A DNA stretch of 35,756 bases from Nitrospirota bacterium (GTDB taxonomy: Bacteria > Nitrospirota > Nitrospiria > JACQBW01): the NCBI GenBank assembly GCA_016194305.1, contig JACQBW010000012.1, forward strand, positions 1 to 35,756. The letters run 5' to 3'. Below the pieces are notes generated by a model. It was not told the DNA's origin and made no database searches. It saw only the letters and a list, made by a program, of their open reading frames with translations. The position numbers were made by a program, and so were the translations under genes. Shown here piece by piece: positions 10,407 through 29,826 of the stretch; positions within the stretch are counted from its first letter, which is position 1; each line of letters opens with the position of its first letter.

Positions 10407-11177
10407 TCATACCTTGACCTTTGCCGGTATTTTTGATTTAAAGTCAGCATCTTTAAGAAACCGATTGAAATCTTTAACCCGGTCGGCGTCCCTGATATGA
10501 ATCGTCAAGTCTATAGAATCGGGGGGCCTTCGCTCAGACCGCTCAATGCCCCCCGAGCCCCCGCGCTCCATACCGGCAGAACCGGATATTCCGCTTTTAT
10601 CCCGGTCAATCACAGTCGAAGAAAGGGGCCTTCGCTCAGACCGCTCAATGCCCCCCGAGCCCCCGCGCTCCATACCGGCAGAACCGGATATTCCGCTTTT
10701 ATCCCGGTCAATCACAGTCGAAGACGGGGGGACGGATATCCTGTCTAATGGGGCTTGCTTTCCCACGTTGCTTTCAAAGATACCGTTTAAGAAAGCATTG
10801 AGGGCTGAGGAAAAATCGAGCTGGCAACCGTCGATGTCCCAAAGATCGAGGTAGGCCTCTTTGACTTCCAGTTTTTGAAGACGACGATAAATGTCAGGGG
10901 CAAATTGAGAAATTCTGGCATGATTATATTCTTCTTTTTTGCCCAAACCGACCCAAAAAATTTTGGATGTTTTGACGCGGTCCGATGAGACCAATACCAC
11001 TTCTCCGAACCGGCCCGCAATCTTTCTTGTTTTGATCAGAAGGGAGAGCGAATTGTTCAGGAGCCAGTCCATTTCACCGGCAAGCCCTCTGGGCGGAACC
11101 ATTTCATCAAAAAACCCGAGAACAAGAATGTCCGACGAAATATGAATTGCTTTCCTGGACTGCACTTCAATATTCAT
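10407..11177 (-). CDS. Stand-alone M17 peptidase N-terminal (macro-like) domain protein with a tandem insertion
   Basis: The protein has 256 residues. The first 135 resemble the N-terminal domain of leucyl aminopeptidases (M17): SSDILVLGFFDEMVPPRGLAG near the start, then KIFWVGLGKKEEYNHARI near residue 72. The metal-binding catalytic domain that normally follows is absent, so it cannot be a peptidase. Residues about 149-217 are two copies of a 34-residue Gly/Ser/Arg-rich unit (SSTVIDRDKSGISGSAGMER and so on). The last 38 residues return to an ordinary beta/alpha pattern. The start overlaps nusB by 4 bases. Macro-like domains can bind nucleotides or ADP-ribose, but nothing here proves a ligand. 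Confidence 0.75.
   Translation of the reverse strand: MNIEVQSRKAIHISSDILVLGFFDEMVPPRGLAGEMDWLLNNSLSLLIKTRKIAGRFGEVVLVSSDRVKTSKIFWVGLGKKEEYNHARISQFAPDIYRRLQKLEVKEAYLDLWDIDGCQLDFSSALNAFLNGIFESNVGKQAPLDRISVPPSSTVIDRDKSGISGSAGMERGGSGGIERSERRPLSSTVIDRDKSGISGSAGMERGGSGGIERSERRPPDSIDLTIHIRDADRVKDFNRFLKDADFKSKIPAKVKV
10523..10724. repeat. Perfect 102-base tandem duplication inside the M17 N-domain gene
   Basis: Bases 10523-10622 and 10625-10724 are identical over 100 bases, with a 102-base period that keeps the reading frame (34 codons). The unit is GC-rich compared with its flanks and contains CCGG-N5-CCGG. Perfect identity points to recent duplication. The unit falls in the loop region of the host protein, where in-frame additions are easily tolerated. 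Confidence 0.97.
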
Positions 11178-20253: not shown

Positions 20254-20757
20254 CTAGGGATCGAGAAGAGCAACGATGTGGCCGATTTCAGGGATTATCA
20301 GCTTTTCCATAGCCAACCGGACCGCGTTCACCGAGCCGGGTATGGAGAAAATAACTTTCCCCTGAATCGTCCCCGCGATGGCCCGGGTTAACATAGCGGG
20401 GGATCCGATCTCCTGGTAACTGATCGATCTGAAAAGCTCTCCAAAACCGTCCAGTCTCTTCTCGAGGAGCCTTTCGACCGCTTCAAAAGTTTGATCCCGA
20501 TTTGAAATGCCGGTTCCCCCATTGATGATGATCGCCTGGATCAAACGGTTCAGGGCCTGATCCATTAGTTTTTTCTCTATCTCAGCCGGATCGTCTTTCA
20601 CCAATTCATAGGAAAGGATCGTGTGAGCGGATGCCTTCAGAATTTCCATAATCAGCTGCCCGCTCTCATCGTCGCCTTTTGTACGGGTATCGCTCACCGT
20701 CAATAAGGCGCACTGGACAGAGGGGATCGTGCGAGACCGGTGCTTTTCGAAACTCAT
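20254..20757 (-). CDS. moaB: Molybdopterin adenylyltransferase, MoaB/Mog family
   Basis: The protein has 167 residues and contains CALLTVSDTRTKGDDESGQ, AIIINGGTGISNRDQTFEAV and FSIPGSVNAVRLAM, the standard MoaB/Mog motifs. It adenylylates molybdopterin so that MoeA can insert molybdate. It follows moeA by 28 bases and forms a cofactor module behind the molybdenum-dependent nitrate reductase. Whether it should be called moaB or mog cannot be decided from sequence alone, as the two families perform the same step in different bacteria. Confidence 0.92.
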   Translation of the reverse strand: MSFEKHRSRTIPSVQCALLTVSDTRTKGDDESGQLIMEILKASAHTILSYELVKDDPAEIEKKLMDQALNRLIQAIIINGGTGISNRDQTFEAVERLLEKRLDGFGELFRSISYQEIGSPAMLTRAIAGTIQGKVIFSIPGSVNAVRLAMEKLIIPEIGHIVALLDP

Positions 20758-20785
20758 GTCGTTTTATTCCATTCGTTCATCATGA

Positions 20786-21985
20786 TTAAAAAGGGATGAC
20801 ATTTATTTCTTCACCCTTCTTGACTATTTCTGCCTCTTCCGGAAGGTCCATTAAACAGTTGGCTTCAACCATTGAATGGATCAAATGAGAACCTTGTTCA
20901 CCCGTCGATCGAACAACCCATTCGTGATGGGGATACGAGAGAACCCCTCGCGAGAAAGAACGCATCCCTCTCTTCTTTTCAATATCGTGGCTTAGTTTGG
21001 CCCGAACGAGTTTCGTCTCGAACTGAAGCGCGCCGCCCCATTTTTTGATCAACGGCTCGACAAATATCTTGAAGGTAACCATGCACGAGACCGGATTGCC
21101 TGGAAGTCCGAAAAACGGCTTCCCATCCATTTCGCCGAATGCCATAGGCGATCCGGGCCTCATTGCCACTTTCCAAAAATGCATCTTGCCATGTGTAGAC
21201 AAAATCTCTTTCACATAGTCAAAATCTCCCATGGAGACTCCGCCGGATACGATCAAAATATCGGCACGCTTCCCTTCCTGGAACTTTTTGAGCAACGCGC
21301 TTTTGTGATCGGCCGCGATTCCCAGAAGAAGAGGCTCTCCCCCTGCTTCCAGGACCTGCGCTGAAAGAGCATACCCGTTTGAGTTAAATATCTTGTTTTC
21401 TGTTCTGGTTTCATGAAGGTCAGCCAGTTCATCCCCCGAAGAGAGAACCGCAACAACTGGTTTCTTATATACGGGAACTTTCCCTTTTCCTAAGGAGGCT
21501 AACATCGCAATTTCGGAGGGCCGGATCACTTTTCCTTTTTTCAGAATGACGGATCCACGACGGACATCTTCTCCCTGTAAACGGATATGAGATCCTTTCA
21601 TCCCCGCATCTTGAATTACGACATTCTTTCCCTTTTTTTCAGTGACTTCAACAGGCACAATCGTATCGGCGCCGGGAGGTATCCGGGCGCCCGTCATGAT
21701 TTTTGCACACACCTTTTTTGAGATGGTCTGCTCGGGGGTTTTGCCTGCAGAGATCACTTCAATTACCTTCAGCTGAATCGTTTTAGCCGATCCCTTGGGT
21801 TGAATATCTTCCCATCTGACCGCATAGCCATCCATCGCGGAATTGTCCCAGGGTGGCTGATCATGAGGCGCCAAAATGTCCTGGGAAAGAATTCTGGCAC
21901 CGGCAGACTGGATTGGAATTTCCTCTTTGTCCGGAGTGACTTTGCCGCCCAGAATAATATTGAGCGCTCCTTCCACAGAAATCAT
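20786..21985 (-). CDS. moeA: Molybdopterin molybdenumtransferase MoeA
   Basis: The protein has 399 residues, the normal MoeA length. It contains PPWDNSAMDGYAVRWEDI near residue 40, GARIPPGADTIVPVE, AVLSSGDEL, IVSGGVSMGDFDYVKEIL and GLPGNPVSCMVTF, all MoeA signatures. It uses adenylylated molybdopterin, made by the adjoining MoaB/Mog protein, and molybdate to complete the cofactor. It lies downstream of mobA after a 136-base spacer with repeats. In this context it mainly serves the fused nitrate reductase. Confidence 0.96.
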   Translation of the reverse strand: MISVEGALNIILGGKVTPDKEEIPIQSAGARILSQDILAPHDQPPWDNSAMDGYAVRWEDIQPKGSAKTIQLKVIEVISAGKTPEQTISKKVCAKIMTGARIPPGADTIVPVEVTEKKGKNVVIQDAGMKGSHIRLQGEDVRRGSVILKKGKVIRPSEIAMLASLGKGKVPVYKKPVVAVLSSGDELADLHETRTENKIFNSNGYALSAQVLEAGGEPLLLGIAADHKSALLKKFQEGKRADILIVSGGVSMGDFDYVKEILSTHGKMHFWKVAMRPGSPMAFGEMDGKPFFGLPGNPVSCMVTFKIFVEPLIKKWGGALQFETKLVRAKLSHDIEKKRGMRSFSRGVLSYPHHEWVVRSTGEQGSHLIHSMVEANCLMDLPEEAEIVKKGEEINVIPF

Positions 21986-22013
21986 TTCAATGGCCTCAAA
22001 TTTCGTTAAAAAG

Positions 22014-22104
22014 TGTGGAATTGCTTAATTGTTAAATTGTTGCGTTGGAAAAAATCGAATCGATATCAACTTATTACAGTTTTTCTCAATGAAACAGTTC
22101 CACA
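22014..22104. repeat. mobA-moeA spacer with inverted arms and an 8-base iteration
   Basis: TGTGGAA (22014-22020) is the inverse of TTCCACA (22098-22104). AATTG occurs at 22019, 22027 and 22035, three times with an 8-base step. The spacer between mobA and moeA is AT-rich and could hold an internal promoter, but no convincing hexamer pair was found. Confidence 0.4.
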
Positions 22105-22121
22105 AATCAGCATTCCAATGT

Positions 22122-22700
22122 TTATTTATCATTCAACAGATTTTTAAAATCTTCAGGCGTATTGATATTGGTCAACCCCCGCATCAGGGGATCTAAAGAT
22201 CTCACTTCTTCTGTTTTGATTTCAAGCGTTTTAATTTTTTTAAATAGATTCACCATTTTATACTCTCTCTTCATGATCGCATTTTCCATCTCCGGAAGCA
22301 CGGTTTGATGATAAACGGCATGAAGCGGATGAAGACCATCCGGAGATCGAAAAAGTGCGGCATCAAACCCCCTGGATTTCTCACAAAGAAAACGGATCAA
22401 ATCGGGATTGAGATAGGGCATATCGACAGCCACCGCAAAAACCGGACCTCTGGATTTCATGAGACCGGTATAAATCCCTGCCATCGGGCCGCCATCAGGG
22501 AAAAGATCAACAAACAGAGGCACCGAAAAACCCTGAAACTTCTCCGGCCTTCTGGCAATGATCCTTATTTCATGAAAAAGGGGTTTGAGCAAATCGAGGG
22601 TGCGTTCAAGGAGACACTTTCCTTCAAATTGAAGGAAAGCTTTCTCTTCTTTCATCCGGAGACTTTCTCCTCCGGCTAGAACCAGAGCCGTCCATTCCAT
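22122..22700 (-). CDS. mobA: Molybdenum cofactor guanylyltransferase MobA
   Basis: The protein has 192 residues. The nucleotide-binding loop reads LAGGESLRMKEEKAFLQ at 8-24 in place of the more usual LAGGxSxRMGxDKA, so two positions (Gly to Lys, Asp to Glu) are changed. FVDLFPDGGPMAGIYTGL and FAVAVDMPYLN are typical for the family. It attaches GMP to the molybdenum cofactor to make the bis-MGD form that enzymes of the NasC family need. A GGGGAG site precedes the start. The function fits its position just behind the nitrate and nitrite reductase genes. Confidence 0.9.
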   Translation of the reverse strand: MEWTALVLAGGESLRMKEEKAFLQFEGKCLLERTLDLLKPLFHEIRIIARRPEKFQGFSVPLFVDLFPDGGPMAGIYTGLMKSRGPVFAVAVDMPYLNPDLIRFLCEKSRGFDAALFRSPDGLHPLHAVYHQTVLPEMENAIMKREYKMVNLFKKIKTLEIKTEEVRSLDPLMRGLTNINTPEDFKNLLNDK

Positions 22701-22773: not shown

Positions 22774-22959
22774 TCAATGAACGGGACGGATGCGCTGGAT
22801 TTGAAATTTTCTGATTTTATAAGATAAAATCCTTTCGGTCAGGTCGAGCTGTCGAGCCGCTTTCGCCATGATCCAGTTATTCTCCTCCATTGCCTTGATA
22901 ATCAGTTCTTTTTCAAGCGTTTCTACCGCCTTTTTAAATGAGATGGTTGAAGTCAGCAT
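22774..22959 (-). CDS. Stand-alone Fis-type HTH protein (NtrC-like DNA-binding domain only)
   Basis: The protein has only 61 residues. Residues about 15-55 read EKELIIKAMEENNWIMAKAA and RQLDLTERILSYKIRKF, which is the Fis-type helix-turn-helix found at the C-terminus of NtrC/NifA-family sigma-54 activators. No receiver or AAA+ domain is present. The start overlaps the nirD stop by 7 bases, so it is translated with the nitrate operon. Because it contains just the DNA-binding part, it could act as a homodimeric binder at activator sites, either competing with or helping the full-length activator. This is inference; the fold assignment is more secure. Confidence 0.82.
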   Translation of the reverse strand: MLTSTISFKKAVETLEKELIIKAMEENNWIMAKAARQLDLTERILSYKIRKFQIQRIRPVH

Positions 22960-23255
22960 TTTAAAAAGATCTCTCCCTCTTTAAGAACGACCTCGTATTG
23001 TTTGATTTTTTCTTTTTCGTTTGCCACACACCCTGTTTTCAAATTCACCTTCCTGCCATGCATTGGACAAATCACCTCGAGACCGGCCACGATTCCGTCG
23101 GATAAGGGCCCGCCTTGATGCGGACAACGGTTCGACACAGCCAAGAATTCATTTCCAAGATTAAAAATTCCAATCTCTTCTTCCTGACACCTGAATTTTC
23201 TTCCTTCGCCAAGAGGAATCTCATCGGGTCTCCCCACCTTGAATAGTCTATCCAT
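22953..23255 (-). CDS. nirD: Nitrite reductase small subunit NirD (Rieske)
   Basis: The protein has 100 residues. The [2Fe-2S] Rieske motifs are CPHQGG and CPMHGR, giving Cys-His pairs in the normal order and spacing. It is the small partner of NirB in the assimilatory NAD(P)H nitrite reductase. The start at 23255 overlaps the end of the fused nasC-nirB gene by 8 bases. A longer reading in the same frame runs back into nirB and is not supported. In some organisms the Rieske domain is fused to NirB; here it stays separate even though the large subunit has gained a nitrate reductase. Confidence 0.93.
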   Translation of the reverse strand: MDRLFKVGRPDEIPLGEGRKFRCQEEEIGIFNLGNEFLAVSNRCPHQGGPLSDGIVAGLEVICPMHGRKVNLKTGCVANEKEKIKQYEVVLKEGEIFLKC

Positions 23256-26200
23256 CAACGACCAAAAGTTCTTTGAACTGGGAGGGGTGTACCGGATTTT
23301 CTCTTTCGCTTTTCCAGGGGTCAACCACAGCTGCCCTGGAAAGGGCAAAATGTTCCAGCAGTTCTGCAGGACGTTTCGATTCGGGATCAAAGAGCTCTTT
23401 TTTGATCGTTTCAACGCCGATCCGGACCACAAAGTCATATGTCCGTTCGAGATAATTTCCTTCTTCCCTGTAGAATTGGAGAAAAAGCGTAGCAACCCTA
23501 AGCGCTTCATCTCCCGTACCGACCGTCGCCAGCAAATCCCCTTTCCGAACTGTCATTCCGGCTGCACCTCCGACGTAAATCTCCCAGCCTGTCTGAATCG
23601 CCACAACACCAATATCCTTGACATAAGACTCCGCGCAGTTTCTCGGACAACCCGAGACCGCCATTTTCACTTTATGAGGCGTATAGAGACCTTCAAATTC
23701 CTTTTCCATTCTAATGCCGAAGGTGGTGGAGTCCTGAACACCAAAACGGCAAAATTCCGTCCCGACACAGGTTTTGACCGTCCGAATCGCCTTCGCATAA
23801 GCATGGCCGGAAGGCATCCCGAGATCTGCCCAGATCAGGGGAAGCGACTCTTTTTTTACCCCTAACAGGTCAATTCTCTGTCCTCCCGTTAGTTTGACCA
23901 TCGGCACATGGTACTTCTCCGCGACATCCGCAATCTTTCTCAGATCTTCCGGCGAAGTGACCCCCCCATACATTCTTGGAACAACCGAATAAGTTCCGTC
24001 TTTCTGTATATTCGCATGGACCCGGTCATTGATAAACCGGGCACTTCTCTCTTCCCGATGGCGTTCTTTCCAGATTTCCGAAAGAAGATAACTTAAGCCG
24101 GGTTTGCAATAAGCGCATCCGATACCGTTCCCTAACTGCTCCAGGACTTGTGAAACAGACTTGAGCTCCCGCGTCCGGATTTGACTCGCCAGCTCTCTTC
24201 GGGAAAGGGTAAAACAGGGGCAAAAAGTTTCCGCCTTGCCGACCACCGGAACATATTCTCCGCCCAGAACCTCCTGGAGGATCTGATCAATTAACGGACC
24301 ACAGCTTTTGCACGAGGTACAGGCCCTCGTCTTTTCACCGATTCCTTCCCGGGAGGTCAGCTCATCCTCCTGAATCGCGCTGACAATGCTTTTCTTGCTC
24401 ACGCCCATGCAACCGCAGACGATATCGTCGTCTTCCAGAAGGAGACGGGTTCTCCCTTTTTCGGCGACTTCACCCATCATCAGAGTTTTTCGAAAAAGGG
24501 TTACATCCGTCTGACTCTTGACGAGTTGCAGTAGTCGAGCAGAATCACCGGTTTCTCCCAAAAGAATGGCCCCGACCACCCGGTTTCCCTGAAGAACAAT
24601 CTTTTTATAAAGGGAATGGCTTTTGTCTGAATAAATCATCGCTTCGCATCCAGGACTATTCCCAATGAAATTCCCGATCGAAACCAGATCGATTCCCGCC
24701 ACTTTTAGGGTCGTCGCCTCGATCGTTCCTTCATACGGCTTATCCTTCAGTCCGACGAGGGCCCGAGCGGCCCCCTTTGCCTGCTCGAACAGCGGCGCAA
24801 TAATGCCATAACTCTTTCCCCGATGCTCAACACACTCCCCCACTGCGTAAATACCAGAATGGCTCGTTTCCATAAAATCATTTACGACAATCCCGCGGCG
24901 CGTTTGGAGTCCCCCCTTTTGAGCGAGTTCGATATTCGGACGGATGCCGGTTGAAAAAACCACCATATCGGCTTCAAATGCCTTTTCATTCGAAAAGGCA
25001 ACTCCTTCCACCTTCTCTTCTCCAATAATCTCCCAAATTGAATGATTGAGATGAACAGTTATGCCGAGGCGTTCGACCTCCTTTTTCAGAATCAGCCCGC
25101 TTTCTTCATCAAGCTGGAGTTCCATCAATCGGTCAGTCAGGTGAAAGAGTGTGACATGAAGGCCCCGCTGAACCAAGGCCCGGCCGGCCTCAAGACCTAG
25201 CAATCCGCCTCCGATCACAACGGCTTTATGGGCATTTTTCGAGTATTCGATCATTCCGGCAGTATCTTCCAGATTCCGGTAGGAAAAGACACCCTTTTTA
25301 TCAATTCCCTTGATCGGGGGTATAAAAGGATTGCTCCCTGTAGCGATAAGGAGTTTATCAAAAAAGAACTTATTCCCATGACTATCCACGACTGCTTTTT
25401 CGACAGGATCGATGTCCGTAATCGTACTACTGACATGGAGAATAATCTTGTTGTCTTCGTACCATTCGCGACTGTTCAGGTAGGTTTCTTCAGGGTTTTT
25501 CTTTCCGGAGAGCACGTCGGACAACAAGATCCGGTTATAGTTCACATGGGGCTCCGCTCCAAAAACTGTGATTTCAAAGTTGCCTCGAAGCGCAAGAATC
25601 TGCTCCACCGCGGCAATACCCGCCATCCCGTTTCCAACCACCACCAACTTTTGTCTATCCTTCATTTCTCTCTTTTCCAGGCTATCATTCTTCTTCTTTT
25701 CAAGTTCGGCCAAGGGAGTAACCAGCTCGATTTTTCCAGTTATGGACTCAATCCCGGATTTCGGTACCTGTGTTTTCACTTTTGAAAGTCTGACAGCGCA
25801 GAATTTTAGCTCGGGCTGACGCGAAATCGAATCGGTTGCGTCGTGCGTGACATCATTAATTGCCAGATCTTTTCCAAACAAGTCATTCCAATGAAAAGGG
25901 GAAAAACAGTTTCCCGGCAGGACGGTTTCCGTCACCCTGGCGGGAAGAATGGCGTACCCTCTTCGGGAACGGATTTCCACTTTGTCGCTGTCCGATAGCC
26001 TTAACTGTACGGCGTCGTCGGGATGAATCGCAATAAATGGGCCGCTGTCCAGCCTGGCAAGCATTGCGATTTTTCCGGTTTTAGTCAGGGTGTGCCACTG
26101 ATGAGGAAGCCGGCCAGTATTCAGGACGAAGGGATAATTCTCGTCGGGAAGTTCTGCGGGAGCCAGATAGGGGCGGGCAAAAATTCTCGCCTTGCCATTT

Positions 26201-27894
26201 TCAGTCGGAAAACGGACCCATTTCTCATTCTGCAGATAACGAATCGGGTTTCGTTCCGGTCCGCCAGGCGGGCAAGGCCATTGCACGGGCGAAGTGCGCA
26301 GTCGATCATAGCTGACGCCGCGGAGGTCGTAACCGGTCGCAGCGTTCGATGCCAATTTGATTTCTTCGAACACTGATGCGGCATCCGGATATGAAAATGC
26401 TTCCGAATATCCCATCGCCGAAGCAACCCGGGAAATGATTTTCCAGTCCGGCAACGCAGTTCCCGGTGGATCCACCCCCTTTTGCATCAGGGTCAGGTTC
26501 CGTTCCGAATTAACCATGACCCCTTCCCCTTCAATCCACATTGCTCCGGGAAGGAGGATGTCGGCAAAGCGATTGGTTTCTGTATCATAAAATATATCCT
26601 GGCTAATGACCAATTCGGCGTTTTTAAGCCCCTCAATGACCTGTTTACGATTCGGCATGGAGGCGACGGGATTGGTGCAGATAATCCATATCGCTTTGAT
26701 TTCTCCATGGGCAAGATGTTCAAAGAGTGAAACGGCGTCGAGTCCTGGCCGGGGATGAATTTTCCCATCAGGAATTTTCCAGAGTTTTTCGATAAATCGG
26801 CGGTCCAGGGCGTTCGAAACGCTGCGATGTCCGGGCAACCCATGGCTCAAATAACCCATTTCCCTCCCTCCCATCGCATTGGGCTGTCCGGTGAGCGAAA
26901 AAGGACCACTTCCGGGTCGGCATATTTTCCCGGTCACGAGATGAAGATTGCACATCGCATTGGTTAACCAGGTCCCCTGAATTCTTTGATTCAAGCCCAT
27001 TGTCCAAAAACTGAGACATTCCGGGGCGCTTCCTATCCATTCGGCTGCCAAACGGAGATCCGCTTCAGGGATTCCCGTCAAACCTGAAACTATATGGGGT
27101 GGATATGCTTCGAGAAAAGGAACGAGCTCCTCAAATCCTTCCGTATGCCTCCGTATAAACTCCAGATCCTGGTTGCCATTTTTGAGTATGAGATGAAGGA
27201 GCCCGTTCAAAAGCGCAAGGTCGGCTCCCGCTCTGATCTGTAAAAAGAGGTCAGCATTTTCAGCGGTCGTGGTTCTCCTCGGATCGACGACGATGAGTTT
27301 CGCGCCGGATGATTTCAAGCGATCCAGAACTCTCAAGAATAGAACAGGATGACAATCGGCCATATTTGTACCGATCAGAAAGAAGCAATCGCTTTTCTCG
27401 ATATCCTGATACGAACCAGGAGGACCATCCGAACCGAACGACATGTGATATCCGCTGGCAGCACTGGACATGCAGAGCCTGGAATTGGAGTCGATATGAT
27501 TCGTGCCGATAAAACCTTTTGCGAGTTTATTGCTTAAATATTGCGCTTCCAGAGACATCTGGCCCGATACGTAAAAGGCTACGGCTTCCGGACCATTTTT
27601 ATCTATGATGGCTCTTAAACGCAGAGCGGTTTCTTCGACGGCTTTATTGAACCCTACGGAAACCGGATCCTGATCCCTTCTTTCACGAAAATAAGGAGAG
27701 GTCATTCGTCCATCAGCCCGTATCGGTTCGGCAGCCGTGGCTCCTTTCGTACAAAGGCGTCCAAAATTTGCAGGATGATCTTTATCTCCGGCGACCTGGA
27801 TCACCCGGTTATTCTCAACACTCAGTAGCATGCCACACCCTACCCCACAGTAGGGACATACCGTTTTAATTGTCTTCATTGCAGATTCCGGCAT
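23248..27894 (-). CDS. Nitrate reductase-nitrite reductase fusion (NasC-NirB)
   Basis: This is one 1548-residue protein with no stop or frameshift at the joint. Residues 1-710 are an assimilatory nitrate reductase: [4Fe-4S] cysteines Cys13, Cys16, Cys20 and Cys48, and the presumed molybdenum ligand Cys141 in NSRLCMSS followed by GPPGSYQDIE. A charged linker (about 711-745) leads into a complete NirB: an FAD/NAD domain starting KLVVVGNGMAGIAAVEQI (about 748-1040), two BFD [2Fe-2S] domains (Cys1160, 1162, 1195, 1198; Cys1225, 1227, 1260, 1263) and a siroheme/[4Fe-4S] core (Cys1376, 1382, 1416, 1420). It would take nitrate to ammonium in one polypeptide. The 27894 start overlaps the narK stop (TAATG) and has a GGAGGG site; a further upstream start would lie inside narK. 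Met744, with a weak AGAGAG site, could permit separate NirB. Confidence 0.93.
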   Translation of the reverse strand: MPESAMKTIKTVCPYCGVGCGMLLSVENNRVIQVAGDKDHPANFGRLCTKGATAAEPIRADGRMTSPYFRERRDQDPVSVGFNKAVEETALRLRAIIDKNGPEAVAFYVSGQMSLEAQYLSNKLAKGFIGTNHIDSNSRLCMSSAASGYHMSFGSDGPPGSYQDIEKSDCFFLIGTNMADCHPVLFLRVLDRLKSSGAKLIVVDPRRTTTAENADLFLQIRAGADLALLNGLLHLILKNGNQDLEFIRRHTEGFEELVPFLEAYPPHIVSGLTGIPEADLRLAAEWIGSAPECLSFWTMGLNQRIQGTWLTNAMCNLHLVTGKICRPGSGPFSLTGQPNAMGGREMGYLSHGLPGHRSVSNALDRRFIEKLWKIPDGKIHPRPGLDAVSLFEHLAHGEIKAIWIICTNPVASMPNRKQVIEGLKNAELVISQDIFYDTETNRFADILLPGAMWIEGEGVMVNSERNLTLMQKGVDPPGTALPDWKIISRVASAMGYSEAFSYPDAASVFEEIKLASNAATGYDLRGVSYDRLRTSPVQWPCPPGGPERNPIRYLQNEKWVRFPTENGKARIFARPYLAPAELPDENYPFVLNTGRLPHQWHTLTKTGKIAMLARLDSGPFIAIHPDDAVQLRLSDSDKVEIRSRRGYAILPARVTETVLPGNCFSPFHWNDLFGKDLAINDVTHDATDSISRQPELKFCAVRLSKVKTQVPKSGIESITGKIELVTPLAELEKKKNDSLEKREMKDRQKLVVVGNGMAGIAAVEQILALRGNFEITVFGAEPHVNYNRILLSDVLSGKKNPEETYLNSREWYEDNKIILHVSSTITDIDPVEKAVVDSHGNKFFFDKLLIATGSNPFIPPIKGIDKKGVFSYRNLEDTAGMIEYSKNAHKAVVIGGGLLGLEAGRALVQRGLHVTLFHLTDRLMELQLDEESGLILKKEVERLGITVHLNHSIWEIIGEEKVEGVAFSNEKAFEADMVVFSTGIRPNIELAQKGGLQTRRGIVVNDFMETSHSGIYAVGECVEHRGKSYGIIAPLFEQAKGAARALVGLKDKPYEGTIEATTLKVAGIDLVSIGNFIGNSPGCEAMIYSDKSHSLYKKIVLQGNRVVGAILLGETGDSARLLQLVKSQTDVTLFRKTLMMGEVAEKGRTRLLLEDDDIVCGCMGVSKKSIVSAIQEDELTSREGIGEKTRACTSCKSCGPLIDQILQEVLGGEYVPVVGKAETFCPCFTLSRRELASQIRTRELKSVSQVLEQLGNGIGCAYCKPGLSYLLSEIWKERHREERSARFINDRVHANIQKDGTYSVVPRMYGGVTSPEDLRKIADVAEKYHVPMVKLTGGQRIDLLGVKKESLPLIWADLGMPSGHAYAKAIRTVKTCVGTEFCRFGVQDSTTFGIRMEKEFEGLYTPHKVKMAVSGCPRNCAESYVKDIGVVAIQTGWEIYVGGAAGMTVRKGDLLATVGTGDEALRVATLFLQFYREEGNYLERTYDFVVRIGVETIKKELFDPESKRPAELLEHFALSRAAVVDPWKSERENPVHPSQFKELLVVDG

Positions 27895-29150
27895 TACCCT
27901 CCCCAGACAACTTCCATGGATACCCTTCCGCTCTCTGTCAGCCCCTGGGAAGGAAGAGACCCGACCAGCCATTTCCTTCTTTTCCAGGATCTCTGAAACA
28001 CAAATACCAGTCCAAAAAAACCAGACAGGAGAAGAATGCTGAAGGCATAAAATCCGCTTTCAAAAGTACCGGTTCTATCTCTCAATAGGCCGAAAAGTGT
28101 CGGAAGGAAAAACCCGCCGATCCCTCCCGCCGCACCGACGATTCCGGTCATCATCCCGATTTCTGCTTTGAACCGCTGGGGAATAATTTGGAAAACGGAT
28201 CCATTTCCCATCCCTAATAAGAGGAGCGTAAAGAAAAGGAGGGGGACGGCCCACTTTAAGGGCGGAAGGGTCCCGACCCCTGCCAAAAGAAGAGCTACGC
28301 CGAAGAAAAGGATCGAAAGGACTTTGACGCCTCCAAAACGGTCGGAAACAAAGCCCCCAACCGGACGGAAAAAGGAGCCGGCAAAAACGCAGAGTGCCAT
28401 CAGATTCCCCGACATGACCTTGGTCAGCCCGTATTGGTCATGAAAGAAGATCGGAAGATAGCTTGCCAGACCGACAAATCCGCCAAAAGTCATGGCATAA
28501 AAGAAATTAAACCACCAGCAGTCGGAAATTTTTAGAACCTGAAGGTAAGAATTAAACTGCTTGGGCTCCGGCTGATTGGGAGAGTCTTTCGCAAAAAGGA
28601 TAAATATCCCCAGGACAACCGATACCGGTATTAAAGCCAATCCGAATACCGCATGCCAGCCCAACAAAGAGGCAAGCCGCGGTGCGAGCAGAGCGGTCAA
28701 TACGGTCCCGCTATTTCCAGCTCCGGCAATGCCGAGCGCCATCCCTTGAGATTCGGGTGGATACCATCGGCTCGCCAATGGAAGAGCGACTGCAAAACTG
28801 GCGCCCGCCACGCCCAGCAGGAGTCCCATGGCCAATACCTGAGAGAAAGATTGAGCAAAGAGCCACCCCCAAACGAGCGGAATCATCGTCATGACAAGTC
28901 CAATGACCCCGGTTTTCTTTGGACCCAGATAGTCAGTCAAAAACCCGGCGGGAAGTCTGAGAATGGCTCCACCCAGAAGGGGAAAAGCAACCATCAATCC
29001 TTTTTGCGCTGCCGTCAGGGAAAGATCCTGTGTTATAAAGAGGGCCAGGGGACCTAACAAAACCCAAACCATAAAGCTCACATCAAAATAAAGAAAAGAT
29101 GAAAATAAAGATCCAGGATGCCCCTGTTTAATGGATTTGATAAAAGTCAT
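27894..29150 (-). CDS. narK: Nitrate/nitrite transporter, NarK-type MFS
   Basis: The protein has 418 residues with 12 predicted membrane helices. The nitrate-porter signatures GIAGAGNSGTVL (about 140) and GAAGGIGGFFLP (about 340) are present, as are the substrate arginine in LRLPAGFLTDYLG (about 65) and a second one in FRPVGGFVSDRFGG. It brings nitrate into the cytoplasm. It is coupled on both sides: ATGA with nifI1 upstream and TAATG with the fused reductase downstream. It could equally be called NasA by function; the sequence alone does not separate import from nitrate/nitrite exchange. Confidence 0.93.
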   Translation of the reverse strand: MTFIKSIKQGHPGSLFSSFLYFDVSFMVWVLLGPLALFITQDLSLTAAQKGLMVAFPLLGGAILRLPAGFLTDYLGPKKTGVIGLVMTMIPLVWGWLFAQSFSQVLAMGLLLGVAGASFAVALPLASRWYPPESQGMALGIAGAGNSGTVLTALLAPRLASLLGWHAVFGLALIPVSVVLGIFILFAKDSPNQPEPKQFNSYLQVLKISDCWWFNFFYAMTFGGFVGLASYLPIFFHDQYGLTKVMSGNLMALCVFAGSFFRPVGGFVSDRFGGVKVLSILFFGVALLLAGVGTLPPLKWAVPLLFFTLLLLGMGNGSVFQIIPQRFKAEIGMMTGIVGAAGGIGGFFLPTLFGLLRDRTGTFESGFYAFSILLLSGFFGLVFVFQRSWKRRKWLVGSLPSQGLTESGRVSMEVVWGG

Positions 29151-29464
29151 TTCTGGCTTTCCCCTGTTCGTATCGTATAAACCTCCTCCATAGGAGAGAT
29201 GAAAATCTTCCCATCACCGTAATTGCCCGTAAACGCAGCCTTGGAGATTGCATCAATCGCTTTTTGGCACTCGTCGTTCGACACCACGATCACCAGCATC
29301 AGTTTGGAAAGTTCTTCATAGAGGGTGTTCCCAACCTGGATCCCACGCTGTTTACCTCTTCCCAGCACATCCATTTTCGTCATTCCGTAAATCCCTTCCA
29401 GTTCCAGCTGGCGCAAAACATCCCCCTCTTTTTCGGGCCTTATGATCGCTTTAATCATTTTCAT
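29147..29464 (-). CDS. nifI1: PII-family protein, NifI1 type
   Basis: The protein has 105 residues from the ATG at 29464, which overlaps the nifI2 stop as ATGA; a GTG 9 bases earlier is a poorer start. It begins MKMIKAIIRPEKEGDVLRQL and contains GRGKQRGIQVGNTLYEEL and GNYGDGKIFISPMEEVYTIR. This is the NifI1 pattern (GRGKQ-G, short altered T-loop) and not the GlnB pattern, and it has no Tyr51 for uridylylation. NifI proteins usually sit in nitrogenase operons and inhibit the enzyme directly when ammonium rises, sensing 2-oxoglutarate and ATP. Here the neighbours are nitrate genes, so the target is probably the transporter or reductase. The paralogue assignment is by eye. Confidence 0.85.
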   Translation of the reverse strand: MKMIKAIIRPEKEGDVLRQLELEGIYGMTKMDVLGRGKQRGIQVGNTLYEELSKLMLVIVVSNDECQKAIDAISKAAFTGNYGDGKIFISPMEEVYTIRTGESQK

Positions 29465-29826
29465 TGGAGACACCTGTCACCTGTAAATTGGTTTCTAATT
29501 TGAAGTGCTTCTTCAACAGGAAGCACAAATATTTTTCCATCCCCTATTTTTCCGCTCTGATTCGAACGGATCAGGCTCTGAACGACCAAAGAAACGTCGC
29601 GGTCTGCAACAATCAGCGAGATATATAACTTGGGAACAAACTGAACTTCGACCTTGTCTCCATGGCGCCTCCAGAAAAAAAAACTTCGCGGAGCATAGCG
29701 AAGTCCCCTCTGCCGGCTTCTTCCCAAAACCCGCATGCTGGTATAGGCTGGAAAACCATCTGACTGAAGATTTTTTTTTGTTATAAACGCCTGGGAAGGT
29801 CTAATGACGGCAATGATCTCTTTCAT
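29461..29826 (-). CDS. nifI2: PII-family protein, NifI2 type
   Basis: The protein has 121 residues. It begins MKEIIAVIRPSQAFITKKNL and contains VLGRSRQRGLRYAP, a long basic T-loop (RSFFFWRRHGDKVEV), and GKIGDGKIFVLPVEEALQIR. The RGLRY element and the enlarged T-loop are typical of NifI2, the partner of NifI1 in a hetero-oligomer. It lacks the tyrosine modified by GlnD. No nif genes are present. The ATG has no ribosome binding site and lies only a few bases after the predicted sigma-54 transcription start, so the message may be close to leaderless. It heads the nitrate-assimilation run. Confidence 0.85.
   Translation of the reverse strand: MKEIIAVIRPSQAFITKKNLQSDGFPAYTSMRVLGRSRQRGLRYAPRSFFFWRRHGDKVEVQFVPKLYISLIVADRDVSLVVQSLIRSNQSGKIGDGKIFVLPVEEALQIRNQFTGDRCLQ

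Follow-up and report, generated by a model that had tools for sequence, protein, structure and literature searches.

A single uninterrupted gene in the analysed stretch of Nitrospirota DNA (the window, 35,756 nucleotides) joins a complete cytoplasmic NasC-type nitrate reductase through a 35-residue linker to a complete NirB nitrite reductase, and the resulting protein of 1548 residues probably carries the whole nitrate-to-ammonium pathway, as judged from its domains and conserved ligands. The frame lies on the minus strand (window positions 23248–27894) and runs through 1548 codons with zero internal stops from an ATG at 27894 to a TAG at 23250–23248; the plus strand of the same interval holds many stops, and the coding frame is that of the minus strand. 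The mechanical open reading frame starts 26 codons further 5', at ATG 27972, while the start chosen here, ATG 27894, shares a TAATG overlap with the stop codon of the transporter gene. The Pfam domains follow each other in the order Molybdop_Fe4S4, Molybdopterin, Molydop_binding, Pyr_redox_2, Rubredoxin_C, Fer2_BFD (two stretches), NIR_SIR_ferr and NIR_SIR. The presence of both reductases in one frame, put forward in a preliminary description of this DNA, was thereby confirmed by the frame itself, by the Pfam and TIGR02374 matches and by the kept ligands. A chance open frame is excluded because each half represents a conserved enzyme of 700–800 residues, and neither of them looks degenerate at the sequence level.

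The NasC-type half (residues 1–708; 25771–27894, minus strand) matched PF04879, PF00384 and PF01568 and had 61–65% identity to its nearest relatives. It retained 212 of the 218 columns that are near-invariant in its clade, including the [4Fe-4S] motif C13, C16, C20 and C48 (27751–27858), near-invariant in the 27 clade members, and the molybdenum ligand Cys141 (27472–27474); these five cysteines had also been listed in the preliminary description and all were found. Cys141 is followed by Met, as in NapA, according to the alignment with the RLCM motif of the Desulfovibrio enzyme (2jio), and the periplasmic nitrate reductase NapA was the best solved-structure match of this half, having the Cys141-Met142 molybdenum site in common with it. 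The fusion thus combines the N-terminal [4Fe-4S] cysteines with the Cys-Met molybdenum site, the two features looked for in an assimilatory NasC/NasA. A C-terminal [2Fe-2S] domain of its own, of the kind known from NasA, is indeed absent from the NasC half, as had been noted earlier.

The NirB half (residues 744–1548; 23251–25665, minus strand) passed the TIGR02374 model with 887 bits against a cut-off of 578, matching positions 1–792 of 794, and was 75% identical to the separate NirB of genomes from the same family. It kept 110 of the 111 near-invariant columns, among them all eight ligand cysteines: C1160, C1162, C1195 and C1198 of the first BFD [2Fe-2S] cluster (24301–24417) and C1376, C1382, C1416 and C1420 of the siroheme/[4Fe-4S] site (23635–23769), assigned by Pfam and column conservation. 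The Pyr_redox_2 domain for FAD and NAD(P)H binding occupies residues 749–1027 (24814–25650). The completeness of NirB, with its FAD/NAD, BFD and siroheme parts, was therefore borne out. The two halves are connected by a Lys/Glu-rich linker (residues 709–743; 25666–25770), and an AlphaFold2 model of residues 1–1200 gave two confident halves (mean pLDDT 86) separated by a predicted disordered segment (pLDDT below 50 over residues 709–745), with a pTM of 0.62, at which the mutual placement of the halves is not fixed by the model.

The fusion gene is embedded in a nitrate-assimilation locus on the minus strand. On its 5' side are genes for an MFS transporter, probably for nitrate/nitrite (27894–29150; PF07690, 80–81% in the same-family genomes G001 and G002), for a PII protein (29147–29473; PF00543, 83–87% in the same two genomes) and for a divergent PII-like protein (29461–29826; PF00543, 63 bits). 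The arrangement of two overlapping PII genes (29147–29826), one of them divergent, directly 5' of the nitrate transporter is kept in G001, G002 and G022. On the 3' side a NirD/NasG-like Rieske [2Fe-2S] protein is encoded (22953–23255; PF00355), whose likely ATG at 23255 overlaps the 3' end of the fusion gene and which is syntenic in G001 and G002. It is followed by a group of molybdenum cofactor genes (20254–22700), named by sequence recognition: MobA (22122–22700) and MoeA (20786–21985), both syntenic in G002, and a MoaB/Mog-like gene (20254–20757). The NirD gene overlaps at its end with that of a stand-alone Fis-family HTH_8 protein of 61 residues (22774–22959), which may be a regulator of the locus. 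Elsewhere in the window, a short gene (10407–11177), matching only the N-terminal domain of an M17 aminopeptidase, contains a perfect tandem duplication of 102 bp (10523–10724), with the repeat occurring nowhere else in the genome.

The locus was compared with those of G001 and G002; that of G001 is divided between two short contigs and was seen in part. In both, one side is formed by two PII genes and the transporter and the other by the genes for the Rieske protein, MobA and MoeA; in the window, the fusion takes up exactly the interval between these two sets. The relatives have at this place a different NasA (36–37%), then a membrane protein (about 560 residues) in which 4Fe-4S and DmsC-type parts are fused, and then the separate NirB. 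The membrane protein next to a cytoplasm-type NasA (L054:8595-10268 in G002, L052:830-2527 in G001) suggests a quinol-linked assimilatory nitrate reductase in these organisms. In the fusion-bearing genome the DmsBC-like donor of the relatives had no match, and no diflavin reductase was found apart from one weak NAD-binding match. Separate genes in close relatives, which the preliminary description had regarded as an argument against the fusion, do therefore exist, but they encode another nitrate reductase, and the flanks indicate a replacement at the same locus.

The NasC half was probably acquired horizontally, since its relatives at 61–65% belong to Verrucomicrobiota, Pseudomonadota and Actinomycetota, while none above 42% was present in 270 genomes of its own class. 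In a tree of NasC domains with 106 rows it grouped (SH-aLRT 99) with domains bearing a C-terminal diflavin reductase, including 13 long-tailed rows of the diflavin type. This is the architecture of NasN of Mycobacterium smegmatis, a monomeric NADPH-dependent diflavin nitrate reductase (PMC7816997, PMC11162112); NasN, its own sequence being absent from the tree, is linked with the clade through its domain architecture and through the actinobacterial and proteobacterial members of the clade. Because of its position inside this clade, the NasC half appears to have lost a diflavin module and is now joined to NirB. The simplest reading of the sequences would be an exchange of reductase modules, diflavin out and NirB in, in which a nitrate reductase domain of the NasN clade took the place of the native NasA and of its DmsBC-like donor subunit in the nitrate-assimilation locus and was joined in frame to the native NirB. 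By eye, the linker had no homology to the NasN interdomain linker, to the Verrucomicrobia tails or to the lost donor gene. In the same clade, the NasC of Marinicella sp. W31 (L105:5914-8158) is split over two frames and has no diflavin tail, due to either a frameshift or decay.

The joined architecture, whose conservation in related genomes had been set as a check, was looked for in about 1,500 genomes and in plasmid records, and no second full NasC-NirB fusion was present among them. The genomes covered included 396 of the phylum, 270 of the class (with the NasC half as query) and 398 and 395 from the phyla of two NasC relatives. In a junction search of plasmids, four matches spanning the junction in one piece were present among the best 15 of 556 records. 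All four came from Bacteroidota, and three of them, when examined, were NasC-NasB half fusions of 1174–1189 residues. Since large phyla were sampled in part and the plasmid matches examined were the best-ranking ones, rarity rather than uniqueness is established. One full-length match, in G1206 (L175:1453-6102), was rejected as a fusion, representing two genes split by a single TGA with a ribosome site. This adjacent, same-frame pair of NasC and NirB is one stop codon short of the fusion architecture.

Could the fusion be an artefact of assembly or base calling, such as a lost stop or an indel between two neighbouring genes, or a chimeric contig? The sequence comes from one draft genome of 37 contigs, the nearest relatives have separate genes, and the pair in G1206 is parted by only one stop codon, all of which would fit such an origin; a single-base indel error in the linker, where the other two frames hold stops, is possible. 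On the other hand, no stop of any kind is present in frame after NasC. The GC content of the halves is close (0.507 and 0.498), and the codon usage of each is within the range of the 17 other genes of the window. A chimeric contig is unlikely and was rejected on these two properties and on the two-sided synteny with the same-family genomes, since it would need two joins, one of them at the start/stop TAATG overlap. Overall, an artefact was considered quite improbable. Somewhat less so, albeit still improbable, is that the gene is real while NirB is also or mainly made from an internal start, or the fusion is cut in the linker, giving two proteins as usual. Met744 (25663–25665) stands where the NirB proteins of the same family begin, and the predicted disorder of the linker would be compatible with cleavage. 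The Shine-Dalgarno sequence of Met744, however, is weak (-5.1 kcal/mol) and too close to its ATG, with a gap of 1 nt, as compared with -6.1 to -6.9 for the separate nirB genes of the relatives and with the strong -11.2 kcal/mol at the fusion start, and for this reason translation into one product is favoured over a separate NirB.

The least probable of the alternatives, and a very improbable one, is that the fused protein is real but its molybdenum half is inactive or is not a nitrate reductase (for example, a formate dehydrogenase), leaving only the NirB half functional. The top NCBIfam score of the NasC half was to the formate dehydrogenase alpha model TIGR01591, at 565 bits and below the cut-off of 666, and with the curated NasC equivalog NF047855 it reached only 520 bits against a cut-off of 1100, which is why it is named here NasC-type and not a NasC equivalog. 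One nitrate reductase of the diflavin type (495) and one of the Bacteroidota fusion type (521) also fell below the NF047855 cut-off, however, and the relation between the two models was the same for a reductase of the diflavin type and for one of the NasC-NasB type. The molybdenum site of formate dehydrogenases has a Cys/Sec-His pair, where the fusion has the Cys-Met of its best solved match, NapA. The conserved clade columns and the context of transporter, NirB, NirD and PII genes also argue for a nitrate reductase.

The preliminary description had regarded NasC/NasA and NirB as separate in known systems, which was not upheld in this general form: Bacteroidota NasC joined to a NirB-like FAD/BFD half without siroheme and the diflavin fusion NasN are partial precedents. 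NasN (MSMEG_4206) belongs to the architecture with which the NasC half forms a clade, and its reductase is attached at the same C-terminal place, but it has flavodoxin, FAD and NAD domains and yields nitrite, while the partner here, NirB, brings a second active site. Despite the clade membership, the fusion was not classed as NasN because flavodoxin, FAD_binding_1 and NAD_binding_1 are absent from its C-terminal part, where the NirB domains stand. Elsewhere, proteins of the NasN-type architecture bear the annotation bifunctional nitrate reductase/sulfite reductase flavoprotein subunit alpha. The Bacteroidota NasC-NasB fusions (Dyadobacter, Chitinophaga, Spirosoma, Hymenobacter; about 1160–1240 residues) similarly have NasC followed by Pyr_redox_2, Rubredoxin_C and BFD, indicating that a NirB-like flavin/BFD module is combined with NasC in other bacteria as well. 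In contrast to the present protein, which has NIR_SIR domains, they end after one BFD, have no siroheme domains and a junction of 0–3 residues, and belong to a separate NasC clade. In comparison with NirBD nitrite reductase, the NirB half is typical in its TIGR02374 match and in having NirD next to it, and differs in carrying a whole nitrate reductase at the N terminus. The exact fusion of NasC with whole NirB has so far been found in one draft genome, while NasC reductase fusions as such are already known.

The nearest functional parallel is Paracoccus denitrificans, in which electrons from NADH reach NasC through the NirB-type NasB and the Rieske protein NasG, with NasB also serving its own siroheme site (PMC4724949, PMC5424462). 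The same set of NasC, a NirB-type NasB and a Rieske NasG is encoded together in the present locus (fusion plus Rieske gene), with one NADH-oxidising protein that would serve the nitrate and nitrite sites here too, although in Paracoccus the polypeptides are separate and here NasC and NirB are covalently joined. The likely route, by analogy, would lead from NAD(P)H to the FAD of the NirB half, then to the BFD [2Fe-2S] clusters and from there to either metal site: the NasC [4Fe-4S]/molybdenum site, reducing nitrate to nitrite (2 e-), or the siroheme-[4Fe-4S] site, reducing nitrite to ammonium (6 e-). The Rieske protein NirD, encoded next to the fusion, would probably mediate the transfer. The supposition that the NirB half feeds both active sites is thus well supported by the lost donor, the lack of a diflavin reductase and the Paracoccus precedent, the electron transfer being a prediction; the AlphaFold2 model gives no structural support for the BFD reaching the NasC cluster, nor does it speak against electron transfer. 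To call the enzyme self-contained went too far, since the next gene downstream encodes the Rieske protein NirD, and channelling of nitrite did not gain structural support, given the disordered linker and the unfixed placement of the halves. The advantage of the joining might consist in a fixed stoichiometry and less free nitrite.

The intact fusion, the kept ligands, the replacement at the locus and the loss of the old donor are observed. The best overall explanation, which we hold with good confidence, is that an acquired NasC replaced NasA and its donor and joined NirB, so that nitrate would be reduced to ammonium in one protein. A stricter version is possible but somewhat doubtful: that one polypeptide, originating from a swap of the NasN diflavin for NirB, uses NAD(P)H as the sole electron input and one flavin/BFD module for two metal sites and keeps nitrite near the enzyme. 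The earlier interpretation is therefore right on the fusion and plausible on the shared electrons, but it claimed too much for channelling and for the novelty of each part. If the assignment is true, a single chain with one NAD(P)H site would house an eight-electron pathway from nitrate to ammonium, making a compact part for the engineering of nitrogen assimilation, and the fusion would be a natural test of a NirB flavin/BFD module driving a molybdenum nitrate reductase directly. In evolutionary terms, it would exemplify how reductase modules (diflavin, NasB-type, whole NirB) are exchanged on a nitrate reductase and how a membrane-type donor is replaced in the process.
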